Notes: a model not told the origin generated them from the sequence alone. Shown: positions 54,582 through 64,000, numbered from the stretch's first letter. The stretch is 64,000 bases of DNA from Methanomassiliicoccales archaeon (GCA_026394395.1 JAPKYK010000001.1:124001-188000); one strand, 5' to 3'. Made by a program: numbers and translations.

Positions 54582-56141
54582 TTATTCTTCTGTCCGGTTG
54601 AGCATCACCGTCAGTTCCTTTCCGAACGCCTTCTTGAAGGTCTTGCGGTCCTCCTCCAGGCGCCACATCTCCAACTGAGGGTCGCCGCTGGCAGTGACGA
54701 TCAGGCGCACCGAACCCTTGGTCACCTTGCTGAAGCGCACGCTCTGCACCAGATTGGAATGCGACCGGTCCAGGCTCTCGGCCATGCGCAGGAGGGTGGA
54801 CAGGCGTACTACCGCCATCTTATCCGCGTCGTCCAACCCCCTTAGGTCCACCGAGCGCTCCTTGGGCATGCGCTTGCGGTGGTACTTGGCCAGGTTGGCC
54901 ATGATCTGCACCTCCCGGCTGGAAAAGCCCAGCAGTTCGGCGTGATTGATGATGTATTGGGAGTGCAGGTGATGGTCGTTGTACGAGATGAAATCCCCGA
55001 CGTCGTGCAGGAAGGCGGCGTGGCGCAGCAGCTCCCTCTCGCCTTTGCCCAGCCCGTGCAGACCTTTCTTGACCGCGCTGTCGTACAGCTCGAGGGCGAT
55101 CGTGGTCACCCACCGGGCGTGCTCCTCGTCCACCGAGCAGTTCCGCCCCAGCTGTATGACGCTCCTCTCTCTCACCGACAGCTCGCGGAAGCCCGGGAAC
55201 TCCTCCAGTCTCCCCAGGTAGTCCATCAGCATGCCGTCCCGCATGCTGCGTCCGCTGACGGCTATCTCGGTGATCTTCAGCTCGTCCATCACCGTTTCGA
55301 GTATCAATGCCCCGGCCACGATGATGTCCGCCCTCTCCGGGTTGATGCCCGGGACCTTCTGCCGGCCCGCTAGGTCCAAAGGCGCCAATTGCGAGACCAG
55401 CTTCTTCAACTGGGTGTGGCGGATCACCCCTGGGTGCAGGCCATCCTGCTTGGCAAGGATGTCCCCCAGGTTCATGATGGTGCCCGAGCTGCCGAAGGCC
55501 AGGCCCACCTTGTTCTGCAAGATCTCCTTCTTCGCCCGGACCAGCGAGCTCTTGATGTACTTGCGCATCTTGCTGAGGGTCTCGTCAGAAACCGACCCCT
55601 CAGGCTTCTTGACGAACATGGCGGTCAGGCGGATGGCCCCCACCTTCATGCTCTCTAGGTAGGTGTATTCCCTCTGGTCACCGAGGATCAGCTCGGTGCT
55701 GCCCCCGCCGATGTCCACGAAAAGGGCGGTCTTCCGACCGAGATGGTGTCCGCTGGACACTCCAAGATAGATCAGCCGCGCCTCCTCCAGCCCGGAGATG
55801 ATCTTCAGCTCCACGCCGGTGGTCTCCTTCATCCGCTCGATCAGCTCCATGCGGTTGGAGGCCTCGCGGGTGGCGGAGGTGGCCATGGCCACGAACTCGG
55901 TCGCCCCGTAGGTGCGCGAGAGGTCGCAGAAGTTCTTCAACACCCTCACCGCTCTCTCTATGGCATTCTCCTTCAGCAGCCCGTCCTGGAACTCTGTCTC
56001 CCCCAGCCGCACCATCTCCTTTTGCTCGCTTATGACGGTGTACGAGCGGTTGAGGTTGATGCGCACCACCAGGAGCCGGACGGAGTTGGTACCAACGTCC
56101 AGAAAGGCCACCACCTTTCCCTTGTCCACCTCATTGGCCAA
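54582..56141 (-). CDS. Ppx/GppA exopolyphosphatase-family protein with C-terminal HD domain
   Basis: A 519-residue phosphatase. Residues 1-310 are the ASKHA-fold Ppx/GppA domain: VAFLDVGTNSVRLLVV, ATSATREASN, and FVDIGGGSTELILG. Residues about 320-519 are an HD-type domain: HAAFLHDVGDFISYNDHHLHS, AKYHRKRMP and RMAESLDRSHSN. The family degrades polyphosphate or (p)ppGpp-type alarmones; the ppk neighbour favours polyphosphate. The start is TTG at 56139-56141 with GGAGGG before it, overlapping the upstream stop by 11 bases; the frame further upstream lies inside the previous gene. It is the last gene of the operon ppk - CHAD fusion - ppx. Confidence 0.88.
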   Translation of the reverse strand: MANEVDKGKVVAFLDVGTNSVRLLVVRINLNRSYTVISEQKEMVRLGETEFQDGLLKENAIERAVRVLKNFCDLSRTYGATEFVAMATSATREASNRMELIERMKETTGVELKIISGLEEARLIYLGVSSGHHLGRKTALFVDIGGGSTELILGDQREYTYLESMKVGAIRLTAMFVKKPEGSVSDETLSKMRKYIKSSLVRAKKEILQNKVGLAFGSSGTIMNLGDILAKQDGLHPGVIRHTQLKKLVSQLAPLDLAGRQKVPGINPERADIIVAGALILETVMDELKITEIAVSGRSMRDGMLMDYLGRLEEFPGFRELSVRERSVIQLGRNCSVDEEHARWVTTIALELYDSAVKKGLHGLGKGERELLRHAAFLHDVGDFISYNDHHLHSQYIINHAELLGFSSREVQIMANLAKYHRKRMPKERSVDLRGLDDADKMAVVRLSTLLRMAESLDRSHSNLVQSVRFSKVTKGSVRLIVTASGDPQLEMWRLEEDRKTFKKAFGKELTVMLNRTEE

Positions 56142-58263
56142 TTCGGACCCTCCTCTTGAACGCCCTTTCGAACTGCCCTTTCTTGCGCCCCACCCATTCC
56201 CTCTCCAGTTCGAAGGTCCCCACGCCCTTGAGCTGCAGCCGGACCTCCTTCCTCCCCACGGCCATGGAGACACCGGCGACCCGGGAATCATGCCCCCGGT
56301 CCAATGAGTCGGCCAGCGCCAGCAGCGCGGACATCTTGCGGACCCGTTTCCGCTCGCCTTCCTTCAGGTCCCTGAACACCCGGTCGGTGTCCCGCGGGGC
56401 TCGCGTTCCGTGATAGCGGGCCACGCAGCCTACGATCATCTTCTCCCGGCAGTCCAAAGGCAGGTCGGCCTTCATGACCAGGTCCAAGGAGCGCCTCTGA
56501 TGGCCTTCTCTGCCCTGGCTCCATCCCACGTCATGCACCAGGGCGGCCAGCTCCAGCAGCTCACGGTCGCCTTCCTTCAGCCGGTGCAGCCCGTGGGTCT
56601 GGTCGAAGAGAAGCATGGTCATGGTCCTCACCTGCTCCACGTGCACCTGGTCCGGGTGCAGGGACATGGCCCATTCGCCCACCGCGACCGTCCGATCATC
56701 CTGATGCCCGTGGGCGATATCCTCAGCCAGGTCGTTCAGTCCCAACGTCCGCACCTCCTCGGCCGTCCCGCTGGCGTCGTACTCCACCAGATGGTGCTGC
56801 AGCTGCAGCTCAGGGAAGGTCAAGGTGGCGTAGGAGGCCTTGGGCCCGTTCCTGGGTCGGCCCACGCTCCCGGGGTTAACGAACAGGGTGCGGGACACCT
56901 CCCTCTCCATGGGTACATGGGAATGGCCGGTGACTATCACGTCCGCCTTGACCTCCTGGGCGATGTCCTCGAGGCGCGATTCAGGGGTGCCGGGGAGCAG
57001 CTTGTCCTGCTCGTCGTCGGGGGCGGCGTGGGTCATGAACAGGGTGCGACCGCAGATGTCCAGGCGCACCTCTTTAGGCAGGGACTCAATCCAATCCCAG
57101 CTCCTTTCCTTCATGGCGTCTACCAACGAGCCGAGCTGGGCGTCCGCGCTCGTCTTCCTCTGTCGGGCCTCGAGCGCATCGCGGTCCATGTTGCCGGAGA
57201 CGCTCATAACGTCCGCCCCCCGCAGCATGTCTATGGCCAGGTCCGGCTCTGGCAGGCCCACGGCATCGCCAGCGTGCAATATGGCTGAGACCCCGCGGTC
57301 CCGGGCGTGGGCCAGCACCGCTCGCAGCGCCGCTGCGTTCCCGTGCACGTCGGAGATCAAGGCCACATTGACCGGGCAGACCTCCTCCTGGCCATGCCCC
57401 TTCAGCTTCTCCAGCAGGCGATAGAAGAAGCGCTCCTGGGTCAGGGCGTACCAGGTCTCCATGAGCCGCCCGTGCAGTTCCTTCCGCCGTCCCTCCAGTC
57501 GCACCTGTAAGTGGTCCAACGCCCCTTCTACAGCGGGGAGCTCCTTCCTCAGGAGGGGGATCCGTTGCAGCCAGATGTCGCAATCGTGCAGTTCGCCTAC
57601 CACGTCCTGCATCTTCTTCAGCTCGCGCAGCTCCTCGTCCAGCCCGTCATCGTAAGCTTTCCTGAAGGCCTCCAGCGCGTAGCGCAGCCTCTTCGCCGCT
57701 ATGCGCAGGGCGTGATGTCCCTGCCAGTCGCTGTAGACCGGGACGGAATGGGCGTGCTCGAAGAGCTCCTCCACGGCCACGGCCGCGTGGGTATAGGCGT
57801 AGGGGCGCAGGGCGGCAGGCGGTCCGTTCCAATCCTCCCCTCCCTCCAGTTCGACCTTCAGTTCCAGCAGCGGGCTGCCATCTGATAGCTGGTCCATGAG
57901 GGCGCATATCGCCGGTTGCATTGCGGTCCGCCCCTCCTTCAGGTGCGCTATCAGGGGCTGGAGGTCCTCGGCCCCCTCCATCCCGCTGAGGAAATCGATC
58001 TGCACGTCCAGGTCCCGGGCTTGCCCCAAGGATGTGGTGACCTCCTTGGCCGCCTGCCGCCAACGCTTGCCCTTCTTCCCCTTGAAGCAATCTCCGAATA
58101 TCCTCAGGGCAGAACGCAGGCGCCGGGAGGCCACGCGCATGCGGTGTACGTGCTCGATGTCCTCCCCCTGGTGGACCCCCTCGACCTCCTCCAGCAGGGC
58201 GTCGAGGCGTTCCCGGGCGGCCTGACGGCCGAACTGGCACAGCTCATCCCGTCCCAAGATCAT
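56131..58263 (-). CDS. CHAD - metallophosphoesterase - HD three-domain fusion
   Basis: A 710-residue fusion. Residues about 10-285 form a CHAD domain with two histidine/arginine repeats (HVHRMRVASRRLRSALRIF and HHALRIAAKRLRYALEAF), a helical module that binds polyphosphate. Residues about 298-470 are a calcineurin-type phosphoesterase: ISDVHGN, HAGDAVG, SGNMDRD, MTHAAPD, GHSHVPM. Residues about 535-710 resemble the HD domain at the end of the adjacent Ppx protein (LVHDVGWSQ, ARYHGTRAPRD, LALADSLDRGHDS). ATG 58263 overlaps the ppk stop (ATGA) with AAGGAGGG just upstream; the longer frame runs inside ppk. A polyphosphate-bound phosphatase is the likely role. Confidence 0.85.
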   Translation of the reverse strand: MILGRDELCQFGRQAARERLDALLEEVEGVHQGEDIEHVHRMRVASRRLRSALRIFGDCFKGKKGKRWRQAAKEVTTSLGQARDLDVQIDFLSGMEGAEDLQPLIAHLKEGRTAMQPAICALMDQLSDGSPLLELKVELEGGEDWNGPPAALRPYAYTHAAVAVEELFEHAHSVPVYSDWQGHHALRIAAKRLRYALEAFRKAYDDGLDEELRELKKMQDVVGELHDCDIWLQRIPLLRKELPAVEGALDHLQVRLEGRRKELHGRLMETWYALTQERFFYRLLEKLKGHGQEEVCPVNVALISDVHGNAAALRAVLAHARDRGVSAILHAGDAVGLPEPDLAIDMLRGADVMSVSGNMDRDALEARQRKTSADAQLGSLVDAMKERSWDWIESLPKEVRLDICGRTLFMTHAAPDDEQDKLLPGTPESRLEDIAQEVKADVIVTGHSHVPMEREVSRTLFVNPGSVGRPRNGPKASYATLTFPELQLQHHLVEYDASGTAEEVRTLGLNDLAEDIAHGHQDDRTVAVGEWAMSLHPDQVHVEQVRTMTMLLFDQTHGLHRLKEGDRELLELAALVHDVGWSQGREGHQRRSLDLVMKADLPLDCREKMIVGCVARYHGTRAPRDTDRVFRDLKEGERKRVRKMSALLALADSLDRGHDSRVAGVSMAVGRKEVRLQLKGVGTFELEREWVGRKKGQFERAFKRRVRIGQ

Positions 58264-60395
58264 CCCTCCTTGTGCCAGCATCCGCGGTTCCGGATGAGCC
58301 AATCCTGGGAATCGACCTTTTCCTCGTTCTTCCGAGCCTTGCGCTTGACGTAGGTGCCGTCGGGGAGCATGTCCCGGGATTTCACGTTGTCCCGCAGGTG
58401 GATCGGCAATATGACGTCCACCAGCATCCGTTTGTAGCTCTCGTCCAGCACTGGGAACAGGACCTCCACACGTTTGTTCAGGTTGCGGGGCATGAGGTCC
58501 GAGCTTCCCAGGAAGACCTCCTCCTCCCCGCCGTTCCTGAAGTAGTAGATGCGGGCATGCTCCAGGAACCGGCCCACTATGCTGCTCTGCCGGATGTTCT
58601 CGCTCAGCCCCTTCACCCCCGGCCGCAGGGCGCATAGCCCGCGCACGTTGAGATCGATACGGACCCCGGCGTTCGAGGCCCGGTACAGCGCCTGGACCAC
58701 CTCCTTGTCCAGCAGTCCATTGAGCTTGAACGCCAGGTAACCGTCCCCATGCTCTAGGTGCCGTTGGGCCTCGCGGTCTATCTTAGCGATGATCTCCTGC
58801 TTAAGGGTCACCGGGGCCACCAGCAACTTGCGATATCGGTCCTTGTGGGCGTACCCAGTCAGGTAGTTGAACAGGTCGGCCACGTCCGCGCCGATGTCCG
58901 GATCGTTGGTCAGGTATCCGATGTCCCCATAGATCCGCGCGGTCTGGGCGTTGTAGTTCCCGGAGCTCATGTGACTGTAGCGGACGATATCGTCGCCCTT
59001 GCGCTTGACCACCAGGAGGAGCTTGGCGTGGACCTTAAGATCCAGTAGTCCGTACACCACGTGCACCCCGGCCTGCTCCAAGGCCCGGGCCCAAACGATG
59101 TTGTTCTCCTCGTCGAAGCGGGCCTTGAGCTCCACCACCGCGGCCACGGCCTTACCGTTCTCCCTCGCTTCCATCAGGGCATCGATGATGGGAGAATGCT
59201 TGTCGATGCGGTATAGGGTTATCTTGATGGCCAGCACCTGGGGGTCGTGGGCCGCCTGCTTGAGGAAGGTGACCAGGGGCACGAAGCTGTCATAGGGATG
59301 GTAGAACAGCCGGTCCCGATGGTCCACGGCGGTCATGAGGTCCTTCTCCGGGACCAGCTCCGGCGGCACGTAAGGAAGGAAGGGGTTATCTTTCAGATCG
59401 GGACGGTTTATGGCCATCAGGTCCCAGAAGGTGGTAAGGGCCAACGGAGCGTGCGAACGAAAGACCATCAGAGAATGCAGGCCAAGCTTGTTGGTGAACA
59501 GCTCGACCATCTTCTCTGGCATGTCATTGTCCACCTCCAGGCGGGTGGGGGAGCCGATCCTTCTGGTCTCCACGCTCTCCTCGATGGCCGTGAGCAGGTC
59601 CTCAGCCTCGTCCGTGGTTATCTCGATGTCCGCGTCCCGGGTGATGCGGAAGGTGTGCGCCTCCTTGATGCTCATCCCCGGGAACAACAGGTCCAGGTTG
59701 TCCGCCACCAGGTCCTCCAGTAGGACGAAGTCCTGTACCCGTCCCGGACCATTCTCCGGCAAGGGAACGAAGCGGGGGAAGAGGTCCAAGGGGACCTTGA
59801 CCCTGGCGTAGCGCTCGCCCCTCTGCGGGTGCCGGACCACCACGGCCAGGTTTATGCTCAGGTTGGAGATGAACGGAAAAGGTTGGTTGAAGTCCAGGGC
59901 CAGTGGCGTCAGCGCCGGGAAGATCATGCGCTCGAAGAAGTCCCGCAGCCCCTCCCGACGGCCCCGGTCCAGGTCCCCTATGCGGTGCACCAGTATGCCC
60001 TGGGCCTTCAGCTTGGGCAGAAGGTCGTCGTACCAGCAGGTGCCATGTGCCTCTAACAGAGGAAGGAGCTCGCGGTTGATGGCCTCCATCTGCTCGAGAG
60101 GCGTCAGGCCGTCCGGCGGGAATTCCAGCGCCCCCTTTTTGAGCTGCCTCTTGAGCCCTGACACGCGCACCATGAAGAACTCGTCCAGGTTGCTGCCGCA
60201 GATGGCCAGGAACTTGACCCTCTCCAGAAGGGGGTGCCGCTCATCCAAAGCCTCCTCGAGTATACGGCGATGGAACCCGATCCAGCTGATCTCCCGGTTC
60301 AGGAAAGAGGAGGATGATTCCAGCTTTGAGGCGGGCGCTTCAGCCTTCGTCACCGGCTTGTTCTTCTTCTTATCCTTGTTCTTGCGAGAGGCCAT
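58260..60395 (-). CDS. ppk1: Polyphosphate kinase 1
   Basis: Makes polyphosphate from ATP reversibly. The protein (711 residues) has the N-terminal NREISWIGFHRRILEEA, the middle head domain, and in the C-terminal phospholipase D-like domains the autophosphorylated His in RYSHMSSGNYN near residue 478 and the second-site RIYYFRNGGEEEVFLGSSD. ATG 60395 precedes a lysine-rich N terminus (ASRKNKDKKKNKP). A TATA box lies at 60424-60432 on the opposite side. It is the first gene of the polyphosphate operon and divergent from the ubiquitin-like operon. Confidence 0.95.
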   Translation of the reverse strand: MASRKNKDKKKNKPVTKAEAPASKLESSSSFLNREISWIGFHRRILEEALDERHPLLERVKFLAICGSNLDEFFMVRVSGLKRQLKKGALEFPPDGLTPLEQMEAINRELLPLLEAHGTCWYDDLLPKLKAQGILVHRIGDLDRGRREGLRDFFERMIFPALTPLALDFNQPFPFISNLSINLAVVVRHPQRGERYARVKVPLDLFPRFVPLPENGPGRVQDFVLLEDLVADNLDLLFPGMSIKEAHTFRITRDADIEITTDEAEDLLTAIEESVETRRIGSPTRLEVDNDMPEKMVELFTNKLGLHSLMVFRSHAPLALTTFWDLMAINRPDLKDNPFLPYVPPELVPEKDLMTAVDHRDRLFYHPYDSFVPLVTFLKQAAHDPQVLAIKITLYRIDKHSPIIDALMEARENGKAVAAVVELKARFDEENNIVWARALEQAGVHVVYGLLDLKVHAKLLLVVKRKGDDIVRYSHMSSGNYNAQTARIYGDIGYLTNDPDIGADVADLFNYLTGYAHKDRYRKLLVAPVTLKQEIIAKIDREAQRHLEHGDGYLAFKLNGLLDKEVVQALYRASNAGVRIDLNVRGLCALRPGVKGLSENIRQSSIVGRFLEHARIYYFRNGGEEEVFLGSSDLMPRNLNKRVEVLFPVLDESYKRMLVDVILPIHLRDNVKSRDMLPDGTYVKRKARKNEEKVDSQDWLIRNRGCWHKEG

Positions 60396-60509
60396 TTCTA
60401 TCCACCACACATCTGACCTGCAGTATATATGAGATTACTGACCAGTCAATAATTCACTCATTATCAAAATGTAAATCGGTGCTGTTCAGTTCTTATAGGC
60501 TGGAGCAGC
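60396..60509. promoter_or_regulatory. Divergent promoter between ppk1 and the ubiquitin-like operon
   Basis: A 114-base AT-rich spacer. CATATATAC on the minus strand (60424-60432) serves ppk1. Candidate elements for the plus strand are the AT-rich stretch near 60458-60477 and TTCTTATAG near 60490. GGAG at 60502-60505 is the ribosome-binding site for the E1-like gene. Confidence 0.5.
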
Positions 60510-61316
60510 ATGCTGGTGCCCATGGACGCCCTGATCCGCCCCGGGGACGTGGACACCGACCGCTTGGACCGGACCAGACGCATCGACTGGGTCGACATCG
60601 GGAGGGTGCAGGGATCGAGGGTGCTGGTGGTCGGCGCCGGAGCCCTGGGCAACGAGGCGGTCAAGGACCTGGTGCTCTTCGGCTTCCAGCACGTGGACGT
60701 GCTGGACATGGACCGCGTGGTCCGCTCCAACCTGAACCGCTGCGTTCTATTTCGCGAGGGGGACCAGTCCACCGGAAGGGGCAAGTCCGATCTGGTGGCG
60801 GAGAGGGCCAGGGAGCTCGATCCCTCGTCCGAGGTCAGACCTTTGTTCGGGACGGTGCAATCTCTGGGGCCGAAGGAGATGGCAGCCTACGACGTGATCC
60901 TCGGGTGCTTGGACAACGTGGCCGCCCGTCTGCACCTCAACGCCAATTCCTACCACGCCGGCGTCCCTTACATCGACGGAGGGACGGACGGCTTCCGGGG
61001 CCGAGTGCAGGTGGTGGTCCCCCCATCGACCCCCTGCCTGCAATGCTCCATGAATCGCAGCCACTACAAGGTGATGGAACGGAGGTTCAGCTGCACCGGA
61101 CAGGACACGGTGTTCTACCAGCCCAAGATGGCAGCGGAGATAACCACCACCAGCGTCATCGCCGCCATGCAGGTCCGGGAGGCGGTCAAGTTGCTCTCCG
61201 GAAAGGACGTGGTCTGTAACACGGTCTATTACGATGGACTGACAGGGAACTGCGAGACCCTCACCTTGGACCGGGACCCCGAATGCCCGGTCCATCTGAC
61301 CGCGCCATTATCATAA
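60510..61316 (+). CDS. E1-like ubiquitin-like-protein activating enzyme (ThiF/UBA fold)
   Basis: A 268-residue adenylating enzyme. It has the ATP-binding VLVVGAGALGNEAVKDL (GxGxxG at 42-47), VDVLDMD (Asp66), the SNLNRCVLF arginine motif at 73-81, GRGKSD (Lys92), and GCLDNVAARLHLN at 132-144. CLQC at 176-179 and a late DPECPVH look like zinc ligands. Cys195 in FSCTGQ, placed as the catalytic cysteine of ThiF/MoeB/E1 enzymes, could carry the thioester. It lacks a separate ubiquitin-fold domain. Its neighbours encode a ubiquitin-like protein, an E2 and a JAMM protease, so it is an E1 rather than a cofactor enzyme. ATG 60522 is an alternative start. Confidence 0.9.
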   Translation: MLVPMDALIRPGDVDTDRLDRTRRIDWVDIGRVQGSRVLVVGAGALGNEAVKDLVLFGFQHVDVLDMDRVVRSNLNRCVLFREGDQSTGRGKSDLVAERARELDPSSEVRPLFGTVQSLGPKEMAAYDVILGCLDNVAARLHLNANSYHAGVPYIDGGTDGFRGRVQVVVPPSTPCLQCSMNRSHYKVMERRFSCTGQDTVFYQPKMAAEITTTSVIAAMQVREAVKLLSGKDVVCNTVYYDGLTGNCETLTLDRDPECPVHLTAPLS

Positions 61317-61336
61317 TGTTGATTCTAATGGAAAGG

Positions 61337-61345
61337 ATTATACAT
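61337..61345 (+). promoter_or_regulatory. Candidate internal promoter for the ubiquitin-like gene
   Basis: ATTATACAT lies about 34 bases before the ubiquitin-like ATG, in the only sizeable gap (58 bases) of the operon. It would give a leader of about nine bases and allow the modifier to be made in excess over the E1. Confidence 0.4.
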
Positions 61346-61374
61346 GATTCCCAAAGATTGACCAGCGGATTACA

Positions 61375-61620
61375 ATGGTGGTAAGAGTAAGGGTAAGGAA
61401 CGCGGAGACCGGGGCTACGGTGGACATGGAACTGGAGACGGAGAACACCGTGGAAGAGATCATCGAAGGCGTTTCGGCATTCTGGGAGAAGGATCCCGGC
61501 GCCTACGTCGTCCGCAAGGGACGCCGGCTTCTTCGGGGGCAGCAGAAGGTCCAGGACCTGGACCTGCAGTCCAACGAGGAGCTGGAGCTGATCCCGGACC
61601 CCGAAGGCGGGAACAAATGA
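61375..61620 (+). CDS. Ubiquitin-like modifier protein ending GG-NK
   Basis: An 81-residue beta-grasp protein. The pattern fits ubiquitin: strand 1 VVRVRVRNAETG, strand 2 ATVDMELE, helix TVEEIIEGVSAFWEKD, strand 3 AYVVRKGRRL, and LQSNEELELIPDPEGG matching ubiquitin's last strand and tail. The C terminus is Gly-Gly followed by Asn-Lys, so the diglycine must be exposed by removing two residues, a job for the JAMM protease encoded two genes later. The E1, E2 and protease are in the same operon. Its TGA overlaps the E2 ATG. Other lysines are few (Lys48 and Lys58 approximately), limiting chain formation. Confidence 0.88.
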   Translation: MVVRVRVRNAETGATVDMELETENTVEEIIEGVSAFWEKDPGAYVVRKGRRLLRGQQKVQDLDLQSNEELELIPDPEGGNK

Positions 61621-62123
61621 CCCTGCCCCTCGAGATACTGTTCATAAGGATGCGCAACGAACTGGAGGCCTGCCAAAGCTTCCTCCCGACCGACTTCGAC
61701 CTGGGCGAGGAGCACCTGACCTCCTTCCCGCTGAAGGTGGACATAACCCTGGAGCGCACCCCCGGTCCCATCATGGAGAACGGGAAGCTCGCCTACCGAT
61801 ATCATCACCAACTGCAGCTGATCATCGGCCGAGAATATCCTTTCGAGAAACCGCTGGTCATCTGGAAGACCCCCATATTTCATCCCAACATCATGATGCC
61901 CGAGGACGGCGGCCACGTCTGCATCAAGCTGTTGTCGGACTGGTCCTTCAATTCTACGTTGTCCACGTTCATCAAGGGCCTGGAGTCCCTGCTCATCTCT
62001 CCTAACGGGGGCAGCCCGTTCGGCACTGACACCTGCACGGCCGCCGCCCAATATTTCAACACGAGCCCGAAACGGGCGCTGCCCATCGTGATTCCGACCT
62101 CCCCCAAGGTGGTGCGCCGTTGA
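61617..62123 (+). CDS. E2-like ubiquitin-conjugating enzyme (UBC fold)
   Basis: A 168-residue UBC-fold protein with the canonical core: N-terminal helix (ILFIRMRNELEAC), a beta meander with YPFEKPLVIW at 74-83, the HPN motif at 89-91 (IFHPNIMMP), the catalytic cysteine at 102 (GGHVCIKLL) and Trp109 in LLSDWSFNSTL, then the crossover helix TFIKGLESLLISPN. This order and spacing match eukaryotic E2s and bacterial or archaeal E2-like proteins. A basic, proline-containing tail (SPKVVRR) follows. It overlaps the modifier gene (ATGA) and the JAMM gene. Confidence 0.9.
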   Translation: MTLPLEILFIRMRNELEACQSFLPTDFDLGEEHLTSFPLKVDITLERTPGPIMENGKLAYRYHHQLQLIIGREYPFEKPLVIWKTPIFHPNIMMPEDGGHVCIKLLSDWSFNSTLSTFIKGLESLLISPNGGSPFGTDTCTAAAQYFNTSPKRALPIVIPTSPKVVRR

Positions 62124-62752
62124 AGCGTGCGCCGGTCATCCTCGGAGGGAAGGACATGGAGGTGGAGGAGATGCCCCCGCCCTCGTCCGAGCGAACCCTG
62201 CCTCACAAGTGGCTGCCCGAGGAGGGCCGTCCCCTATATTCAGAAAAAGAGGGGGCGGAGATGTTCCTGTTCAAGACGGCGGAGGAGAAGGTGCGCAACC
62301 ACGCCCTCAGCAAGGTCAAGGAAGGCTTGGAGGTGATGGGCTTCCTTTTGGGGGAGGTGTTCACCTTCGAAGGCCGGGAGTACACCGTGGTCCGGGACGT
62401 GGCCACCACCGACCTGGAGGCCACCTCGGTCAGCGTAAGGTTCGACCCGGAGGGGTTCGAGACCCTCTTCGCCTCGCTGGAATGCGCCCGCTTCCGCTAC
62501 GTGCTGGTGGGCTGGTACCATTCCCATCCCGGTCACAGATGCTTCCTCTCCTCGACGGACATCGCCACCCAAAGTGGGATGTTCGACCGGCCTTACCACA
62601 CCGCGTTGGTCGTTGACCCCATACACCGGGAGATGGACGCGTTCTGCCTGAAAAAAGGAGAGGTGCGGCGACGCAAGTTCATGGTCTACTGGGACGAGTT
62701 CCAGAATCCCTATTACGGCGAGAGCGTCAGGTCCCGTAAGCTAAGCGATTAG
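62120..62752 (+). CDS. Rpn11-like JAMM protease of the ubiquitin-like operon
   Basis: A 210-residue MPN+ metalloprotease. The zinc site is complete: Glu71 in LEVMGFLLGE, then GWYHSHPGHRCFLSSTDIATQ-type motif at 131-149 with His134, His136 and Asp147. The wording of this site (GWYHSHPG, LSSTDI) is strikingly like the proteasomal lid enzyme Rpn11. An acidic, proline-containing 50-residue N-terminal region precedes the domain. It starts at TTG overlapping the E2 stop. Expected roles: trimming the Asn-Lys tail of the modifier and removing it from targets. It is the last gene of the operon. Confidence 0.9.
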   Translation: MKRAPVILGGKDMEVEEMPPPSSERTLPHKWLPEEGRPLYSEKEGAEMFLFKTAEEKVRNHALSKVKEGLEVMGFLLGEVFTFEGREYTVVRDVATTDLEATSVSVRFDPEGFETLFASLECARFRYVLVGWYHSHPGHRCFLSSTDIATQSGMFDRPYHTALVVDPIHREMDAFCLKKGEVRRRKFMVYWDEFQNPYYGESVRSRKLSD

Positions 62753-62753
62753 C

Positions 62754-63293
62754 TCACACCCAGATAGCGTGCCGGCGCCTCAGCGAGGTCTCGTCCTGTT
62801 GCAGGCGTTGCATGAGCAGAGGGACCATGGAATCAAGCATGACCATGCTGGAGAGCTCGAAGATCGTTCCCAGGGGGGCCATGCGCTTCTTCTGATCGTC
62901 CCGGGGCTGCACCAGCTCCATGACTATGTTGCTGGCGATGCCCAGTTTGGAATGACGGCTTCCAGTGATCGTTATGACCACCGCGCCGATGCGGCGCACG
63001 ATGTTGGCGGTCTGCACCGCGGACATGGTCTCCCCGGTGTTGGATATGATGAACACTAGATCGTCCTTCTCCACTATGGGGGTGGTGGTGTCACCGACGA
63101 AGTGTACGTTCAGCCCAATCTGCACTAGGCGCACGGCGAAGGACTTGCCGACCAATCCGGACCGTCCCACCCCGTAGATGAATATCTTGGGCGAGGAGGC
63201 TAGGGCCTCAATGATCTGCGAGATGACGATCTCGTCCACCTTCTCGATGGTCCGCTTGACCTCTTCCAGGATGTAGACGGTGGTGTCCTTCAA
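62754..63293 (-). CDS. hxlB: 6-phospho-3-hexuloisomerase
   Basis: A 179-residue SIS-domain isomerase interconverting hexulose 6-phosphate and fructose 6-phosphate in the ribulose monophosphate route; archaea use it backwards to make ribulose 5-phosphate. Features: IFIYGVGRSGLVGKSFAVRL near residue 37, FIISNTGETMSAVQ and the C-terminal FELSSMVMLDSMV, all family-typical. No hexulose-phosphate synthase is adjacent. Its start overlaps the stop of the TIM-barrel gene upstream, so the two are co-transcribed. It ends two bases from the convergent JAMM gene. Confidence 0.93.
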   Translation of the reverse strand: MKDTTVYILEEVKRTIEKVDEIVISQIIEALASSPKIFIYGVGRSGLVGKSFAVRLVQIGLNVHFVGDTTTPIVEKDDLVFIISNTGETMSAVQTANIVRRIGAVVITITGSRHSKLGIASNIVMELVQPRDDQKKRMAPLGTIFELSSMVMLDSMVPLLMQRLQQDETSLRRRHAIWV

Positions 63294-64000
63294 TCCTCAT
63301 CCTCGTCCTTGCCGCCCTTGGGCTTCTTGACCTTGGTGTCCTTGGATATCTTCTTGGTCAGCACACGCTCGTAGATGACCTTCATGTACATGGCGTCGTG
63401 CTCCAGCAAGGGGGAGCTGGAAATTATGACCGAGTTGGGGTTGGCTTCCGCCAGATACTCGGCCATCGGTTCGAAACGCAGGTCGCCCTTCTTGATCGGG
63501 GTCACCCGGCGCTCGTTGCCGCCCTCGTGCTCCACGCCCGAAAAGTGAGTGTAATGCAGGTCGCCGACGTAGCTGCTGACCTTGTCGAAGACCTCGGCGA
63601 AGTCCTCCGATTCCCTGAGCATGCCGTTGGTACGAGCGTGCAGATGGGCGAAGTTGACCACCGGAACGACGTGGTCCAGCTTGTCGCACAGCTCCAAAAT
63701 CTCGTCCAGGCCGCCGAACACCTCCTTGCGGCCGGAGGTCTCCAGTCCCAGCTTGGGGGTGATCTTGTTCTTGTCCCACCAGGCCACGATCTCCTCCAGC
63801 CGGTCGGTGATGGCGGCGGTGGCCTCCCGGTGGCTCAGGTTGCCGTAGAGCCCCATGTGGGAGACTACCATGTTGCCGCCCATCTCCTGGGTCAGCAGGC
63901 CGGCCCAGCGGATGGAGTCCATGCTCTTTCTGGTGAGCTCGGTGTCTGTGGCCAGGTCGATGTAGTACGGTGTGTGCATGGAAAGCGCCACGTCCAGCTC
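63290..64000 (-). CDS. Endonuclease IV/xylose isomerase-like TIM-barrel protein (truncated by window edge)
   Basis: At least 236 codons are present; the frame is open to the window edge, so the N terminus is missing. Metal-ligand motifs of AP endonuclease family 2 barrels are seen: MVVSHMGLYG, PKLGLETSG, VVNFAHLHAR and DLHYTHFSG. The tail is lysine-rich and very acidic at the end (KKPKGGKDEDED). Family members are endonuclease IV-type DNA repair enzymes or sugar isomerases; coupling with the phosphohexuloisomerase leaves both open. Confidence 0.82.
   Translation of the reverse strand, partial: ELDVALSMHTPYYIDLATDTELTRKSMDSIRWAGLLTQEMGGNMVVSHMGLYGNLSHREATAAITDRLEEIVAWWDKNKITPKLGLETSGRKEVFGGLDEILELCDKLDHVVPVVNFAHLHARTNGMLRESEDFAEVFDKVSSYVGDLHYTHFSGVEHEGGNERRVTPIKKGDLRFEPMAEYLAEANPNSVIISSSPLLEHDAMYMKVIYERVLTKKISKDTKVKKPKGGKDEDED

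Follow-up and report, generated by a model that had tools for sequence, protein, structure and literature searches.

An operon of four genes, which encode an E1-like activating enzyme, a ubiquitin-like modifier (Ubl), an E2 conjugating enzyme and an Rpn11-like JAMM metalloprotease, is a vertically inherited core trait of the archaeal order Methanomassiliicoccales, and it probably serves a dedicated ubiquitin-like conjugation pathway with a RING-like E3, deconjugation by the JAMM protease and possible delivery to the proteasome. Gene content, folds, catalytic residues, synteny and the co-loss of the parts were established in a 64,000-nucleotide stretch of DNA (hereafter the window) and in related genomes. 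The window derives from a genome of 1.64 Mb that is 99.85% complete. The nearest named records retrieved by E2 search belong to Methanomassiliicoccales and other Thermoplasmatota, thereby bearing out the host that had been proposed in the initial annotation.

Eukaryote-like ubiquitylation in archaea has been documented mainly from uncultured Aigarchaeota and Asgard archaea. A compact cascade with a probable RING ligase is here a core trait of a methanogen order that includes Methanomassiliicoccus, and the targets of the tag and their fate at the proteasome are therefore directly testable in vivo. Natural controls come from lineages that lose the pathway part by part; the RING partner is informative on the timing of RING E3s joining E1/E2 systems.

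The operon and its products

The initial annotation described four co-directional genes in the order E1, Ubl, E2 and JAMM, the last three overlapping at ATGA and TTGA junctions. Coordinates and strand were reproduced by an ORF check (Table 1), and the overlaps were located at 61617-61620 (ATGA, Ubl/E2) and 62120-62123 (TTGA, E2/JAMM); the gap from E1 to Ubl is 58 bp.

Table 1. Genes of the operon and its neighbours, with positions counted from the first letter of the window
Feature	Position	Strand	Characteristics
E1-like activating enzyme	60510..61316	+	268 aa, single ThiF domain
Ubiquitin-like modifier (Ubl)	61375..61620	+	81 aa, C-terminus IPDPEGG-NK
E2 conjugating enzyme	61617..62123	+	UBC fold, 168 aa, HPN 89-91, catalytic Cys102
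Rpn11-like JAMM metalloprotease	62120..62752	+	210 aa, TTG start, E71/H134/H136/S144/D147
SIS-domain sugar isomerase, convergent neighbour	62754..63293	-	Pfam SIS 3e-16; synteny marker and loss control
AP_endonuc_2 TIM-barrel protein, convergent neighbour	63290..64000	-	1.2e-18; synteny marker
Polyphosphate kinase Ppk1, divergent neighbour	58260..60410	-	PP_kinase domains to 1e-70

The E1 matches Pfam ThiF at 1e-47 over residues 32-261, and its best PDB match is the UBA2/NEDD8 E1 (3e-27; catalytic subunits of the SUMO and NEDD8 E1s), in agreement with its earlier designation as E1-like. GAGALGNE, D66xD68, N74, R77, K92, D135 and the zinc ligands C176/C179/C259/H262 (CxxC...CxxH) are near-invariant in the alignment of relatives, and Cys195, which lines up with the cysteine in the crossover loop of E. 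coli ThiF and MoeB, is kept in 58/60 aligned relatives. Judged from these alignments, the E1 holds the adenylation residues and a candidate thioester cysteine, Cys195. At 268 aa, it would be too short to accommodate an SCCH or UFD domain as found in eukaryotic E1s.

The Ubl stays below threshold in Pfam (ubiquitin 0.036, YukD 0.014), and a structure model was required for its assignment because the sequence alone was too weak. AlphaFold (AF2) models of the Ubl and the E2 were built from alignments of named relatives. The Ubl model (pLDDT 93) matches ubiquitin and ISG15 in Foldseek with E ~1e-7 and TM ~0.8; this confident ubiquitin fold with a C-terminal diglycine substantiates the beta-grasp modifier that had been claimed. 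The diglycine occurs in 66/66 aligned relatives, the C-terminus LELIPDPEGG is nearly unchanging, and Ubls from E2-bearing genomes end in PDPxGG. A two-residue tail, NK, follows the diglycine in the window; 24/65 relatives have no residue beyond the GG, the others carrying short tails.

The E2 was detected by Pfam UQ_con at 2e-13, and the top fold matches of its model (pLDDT 88) are E2 enzymes with TM ~0.55-0.63. HPN89-91 and Cys102 align with the active site of solved eukaryotic E2s, so that the UBC fold with Cys102 at the active site, as annotated from the HPN motif and the cysteine, was recovered by structure prediction. Residues H89, P90, N91, C102, W109, P129, N130 and C140 are invariant among 32 aligned E2s.

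The JAMM protein matches Pfam JAB (1e-12) and, as its best PDB hit, Rpn11 (1.2e-12), which confirmed its assignment as Rpn11-like. It shares GWYHSHPGxxCxLSxxDxxTQ with Rpn11, the HPGxxCxLSxxD segment being Rpn11/CSN5-like, and reaches only 32 bits against the desampylase model (cut-off 130). The metal ligands are kept in 67-69 of 71 relatives. Tail processing was rejected as the main role of the protease, since most loci whose Ubl already ends at GG keep the JAMM gene; deconjugation is therefore likelier than tail trimming.

The AP_endonuc_2 gene adjoins the operon in nearly all of the 40 loci compared within the order. Neither it nor the SIS gene was accepted as a part of the pathway, SIS being retained by genomes that lost the pathway, and Ppk1 was rejected because only members of the window's genus (loci L031-L034) have it next to the operon. 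Ppk1 lies beside ORFs that by eye resemble Ppx/GppA and CHAD/HD-type proteins, forming a polyphosphate cluster at 54582-60410. Elsewhere in the window, the segment 32000-40000 has a GC content of 46-50%, against ~60% around it, and is possibly an acquired island; its ORFs resemble, by eye, a radical-SAM aminomutase, a citrate synthase and two cation antiporters.

Vertical inheritance and joint decay

The E2 is present in 71/101 relatives of the order Methanomassiliicoccales (24/27 genera) and in 82/390 genomes of the phylum (51/155 genera). A search of Thermoplasmatota genomes for the gene order, as had been proposed, found it order-wide and in other Thermoplasmatota: the order E1-Ubl-E2-JAMM, convergent with the SIS and AP_endonuc_2 genes, is found in 37/40 order loci, and among the named loci (n=80) 58 have this order and 14 have Ubl-E2-JAMM. 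Such recurrence is far above chance expectation. Values of pN/pS within the genus are 0.07-0.12 for Ubl, 0.17-0.26 for E2, 0.13-0.19 for JAMM and 0.25-0.30 for E1, and all four genes are real and under purifying selection. Because of the single syntenic locus, the near-universal gene order, the phylum-wide E2 and the low pN/pS, the operon was judged a vertical core trait of the order, neither a mobile nor a defence module. The initial annotation had called a unit of this kind unexpected in Thermoplasmatota, a view that does not hold: the operon is widespread in the phylum, and related operons as well as an Rpn11 orthologue are already published.

The pathway has been lost in several lineages, the E2 being absent from all of genus g21, part of g18 and part of g13. 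The Ubl of E2-negative lineages is often still found beside SIS, with a C-terminus that lacks the diglycine (for example IPDPVLSLRL, IPDIGEITT and LVHER). The GG end of the Ubl model was matched in 0/20 hits from E2-negative genomes, 12 of these 20 Ubl ends having been read directly, whereas the Ubls of all E2-bearing genomes match it. Among the leftovers in g13, the HxH of the JAMM has become RxS or LxF, and the E1 lacks K92, R77, D135 or C195 in various combinations. The diglycine, the E2, E1 catalysis and the JAMM ligands thus decay together and therefore belong to one covalent conjugation pathway; such joint decay is predicted by covalent conjugation and not by a sulfur-carrier or non-covalent role. 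Covalent conjugation of the Ubl is highly likely.

At the g21 loci L256-L265, which are E2-negative, and at L266, a Ubl without diglycine persists at the locus after the loss of E1, E2 and JAMM. This Ubl might serve a separate, non-covalent function.

A probable RING-like partner and the proposed pathway

The initial annotation saw no RING-type E3 and supposed that the E2 may transfer the Ubl directly. The genome nevertheless encodes one zf-RING_2-like match, a RING-like zinc-ribbon protein of 283 aa (G000:C3:391243-392091) that is co-inherited with the E2. It carries zinc ribbons and a C-x2-C...C-x-C-G-K-x-F-H-x2-C...C-P-Y-C domain besides a hydrophobic stretch at the N-terminus, and the family is often membrane-anchored. 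The protein scores below the cut-off of Pfam zf-RING_2, and the RING part of the profile matches the RING E3s Arkadia, RNF165 and RLIM in the PDB (1.5e-6). Seven ligands of the zinc pattern C-x2-C..C-x-C-x4-H-x2-C..C-x2-C are invariant, and one is replaced in family f6.

Raw counts over 101 genomes were 67 with both E2 and RING, 4 with E2 only, 2 with RING only and 28 with neither. One of the two RING-only genomes, G047, was rejected as an exception, its E2 being masked by N in an otherwise complete locus; with G047 counted as E2-bearing, the RING-like protein occurs in 68/72 E2-bearing genomes and in 1/29 others. The remaining RING-only genome (G081) is missing the whole locus including SIS. 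Two of the four genomes with E2 only, G002 and G037, reach a completeness of 82% and 73%, and the other two, G036 and G072, belong to genus g13 and have a JAMM without its catalytic half. The SIS neighbour, used as control, is kept in 98/101 genomes, among them nearly all that lack the E2, and the co-loss of E2 and RING is therefore specific. The Fisher value of 2e-18 for the co-occurrence overstates its significance because the genomes are related; the genus pattern suggests at least three separate co-loss events, and perhaps only 3-5 in all.

In other classes of Thermoplasmatota, the RING core is linked to the operon itself. Giant proteins immediately preceding Ubl-E2-JAMM (L112, L114) or E2-JAMM (L121) have it at their C-terminus, as do a 425-aa protein ahead of E1-Ubl-E2-JAMM (L116) and a divergent neighbour (L107, L108). 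The giant proteins of L112, L114, L121, L107 and L108, which lie beside the Ubl/E2 genes, measure 1455 to over 2200 aa within the stretch read and contain no recognised substrate-binding domain.

The RING-like zinc-ribbon protein is the best candidate for the E3 of the pathway, a role that is fairly probable. Direct transfer by the E2, with the RING-like protein otherwise employed and co-lost by coincidence, is now the less favoured reading because the RING is co-inherited with the E2 and is operonic with Ubl, E2 and JAMM in other classes. E3-independent conjugation would fit E2 loop 7, which reads DWSF in the window and W109 followed by xF in most relatives rather than D/ExWSP, so that the canonical RING-contact proline (WSP) is a phenylalanine in the window E2. 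It would also fit the order loci of Methanomassiliicoccales, where no RING gene was found inside the operon, and the two genomes G036 and G072. Against these points stand the co-occurrence with its specific control, the operonic RING of other classes and the loop-4 aromatic of the E2, which is retained (YP[FY]EKP); judging from its truncated JAMM, the pathway of G036 and G072 may be decaying. We therefore regard E3-independent conjugation as unlikely.

For the thioesters, the E3 role, the substrates and proteasome targeting, we infer the following course of conjugation with a RING-like E3. The JAMM would trim the short Ubl tail where one is present, and the E1 would adenylate the C-terminal glycine of the Ubl, probably through a Cys195 thioester. 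The Ubl would then be handed to Cys102 of the E2, and the RING-like zinc-ribbon protein, encoded elsewhere, would probably act as E3 for isopeptide transfer onto target lysines. Deconjugation would fall to the Rpn11-like JAMM. Delivery to the PAN-20S proteasome would be the most likely use of the tag and is the least certain step.

The genome encodes the 20S proteasome alpha and beta subunits and PAN, and a haloarchaeon has been found to couple SAMP to the proteasome (PMC4895103); on both grounds delivery is plausible, and we give proteasome targeting an even chance. The RING gene is co-directional with and upstream of psmA-SBDS in 17/20 loci, including the window's own genome. The Hdr genes on its other side are conserved as well, and the adjacency of RING and psmA may be plain conserved synteny. 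It could go either way whether Thermoplasmatota, an order of methanogens among them, possess a full E1-E2-RING(E3)-Ubl-JAMM cascade of their own that is coupled to the 20S proteasome, outside Asgard/TACK; such a ubiquitin-proteasome pathway would have been overlooked because its E3 is unlinked, within the proteasome-alpha/SBDS cluster.

A sulfur-carrier or cofactor pathway, with a ThiS/MoaD-like Ubl, a MoeB/ThiF-like E1 and accessory E2 and JAMM, is very improbable. The E1 does have the size of ThiF/MoeB and the crossover-loop Cys, but the genome holds a second, MoeB-like E1 that lacks the Cys195 equivalent, Pfam found no cofactor genes among the operon neighbours in the window, the Ubl folds as ubiquitin/ISG15, and an E2 with intact HPN and Cys is co-lost with the diglycine. 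An anti-phage role akin to the bacterial Bil/E1-E2-JAB operons, one of the roles first considered, was rejected as the least credible reading, since the operon shares their component classes but gave only partial PADLOC E1-E2 matches (ThiF part only, none for Ubl or E2), its proteins are unfused, and it is inherited vertically across the order at one syntenic locus with housekeeping neighbours.

Relation to known systems and variant arrangements

Among the closest known systems, the cascade of Caldiarchaeum subterraneum has been reconstituted (Hennell James 2017, PMC5654768). Its operon likewise encodes a Ub with GG and a short pro-peptide, an E1, a UBC-fold E2 and an adjacent Rpn11-like JAMM (PMC5654768, PMC6043591), and a RING E3 is common to both genomes, as a candidate in the window's. 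The Caldiarchaeum E1 includes an extra catalytic-Cys domain and a C-terminal UBL domain (PMC5654768), whereas the window E1 is a single ThiF domain; loop 7 of the E2 is of the D/ExWSP type there and WSF here; and the RING lies within the operon there and beside psmA, off the operon, here.

The JAMM-3 section of Fuchs 2018 (PMC6043591) describes Rpn11/CSN5-like prokaryotic JAMMs in operons with Ub, E1 and E2, as in the window, and names no taxa for them. The window operon probably belongs to this group, by gene content and likeness of the JAMM, as far as that section characterises it. The same text finds RING E3s in C. subterraneum and Asgard alone and presents the JAMM-3 operons without an E3 of that type, in contrast to the candidate RING partner here. 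An Rpn11 orthologue was reported in Methanomassiliicoccus luminyensis by Fort 2015 (PMC4453063), whose passage on this protein mentions no E1, E2 or Ubl, and the euryarchaeal toolkit of Grau-Bove 2015 (PMC4327156) was listed from one marine group II genome. Three elements were already known: the cascade of Caldiarchaeum, JAMM-3 operons carrying Ub, E1 and E2 but no E3, and the Rpn11 orthologue of Methanomassiliicoccus. Relative to the literature searched, three findings are new: conservation of the operon throughout the order, its step-by-step decay in which the diglycine disappears, and a RING partner that is inherited together with it and is operonic in some cases; the supplementary 'Cluster III' of PMC5654768 may already list Methanomassiliicoccales clusters.

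The four component classes are shared with the Bil/Bub defence systems and with bacterial operons of Ub, JAB, E1 and E2 (Iyer 2006, PMC1779556). Several of them have fused E1-E2 or E2s without the classical His, and their distribution is sporadic, whereas the window system has separate proteins, an intact HPN and vertical inheritance. Haloarchaeal SAMP (UbaA, JAMM1/2; PMC4895103) resembles it in a Ubl activated by a MoeB/ThiF-type E1, in a JAMM protease and, as proposed here, in a connection with AAA ATPases and 20S proteasomes. SAMP lacks both E2 and E3, and the distinction from SAMP/urmylation drawn at the outset stands: the window system has a co-conserved E2 and an Rpn11-like JAMM. The ubiquitin, SUMO and NEDD8 cascades of eukaryotes are alike in folds, HPN/Cys E2, Rpn11/CSN5-type JAMM, RING-like E3 candidate and, as proposed here, transfer order; the window system differs in its minimal set of one E1 and one E2, with an E1 apparently devoid of SCCH/UFD domains.

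Several variant arrangements were observed. In other Thermoplasmatota, single ORFs at L110:7166-7855 and L131:2438-3205 fuse ubiquitin (PF00240) to E2 (PF00179). In L110 a diglycine stands ahead of the E2 portion, with a JAMM gene next in line, on which grounds the fusion suggests a precursor cleaved by JAMM. L099 has the order Ubl-E2-JAMM-E1, with the Ubl fused to a zinc ribbon and DUF835 (L099:6311-7378) and an enlarged JAMM of 890 aa that shows zinc-ribbon-like matches (L099:7872-10541). Second loci with Ubl, E2 and a 351-353-aa E1 occur in genomes G105 and G116 (L136, L137), a gene content that hints at two parallel conjugation systems in each of these genomes.
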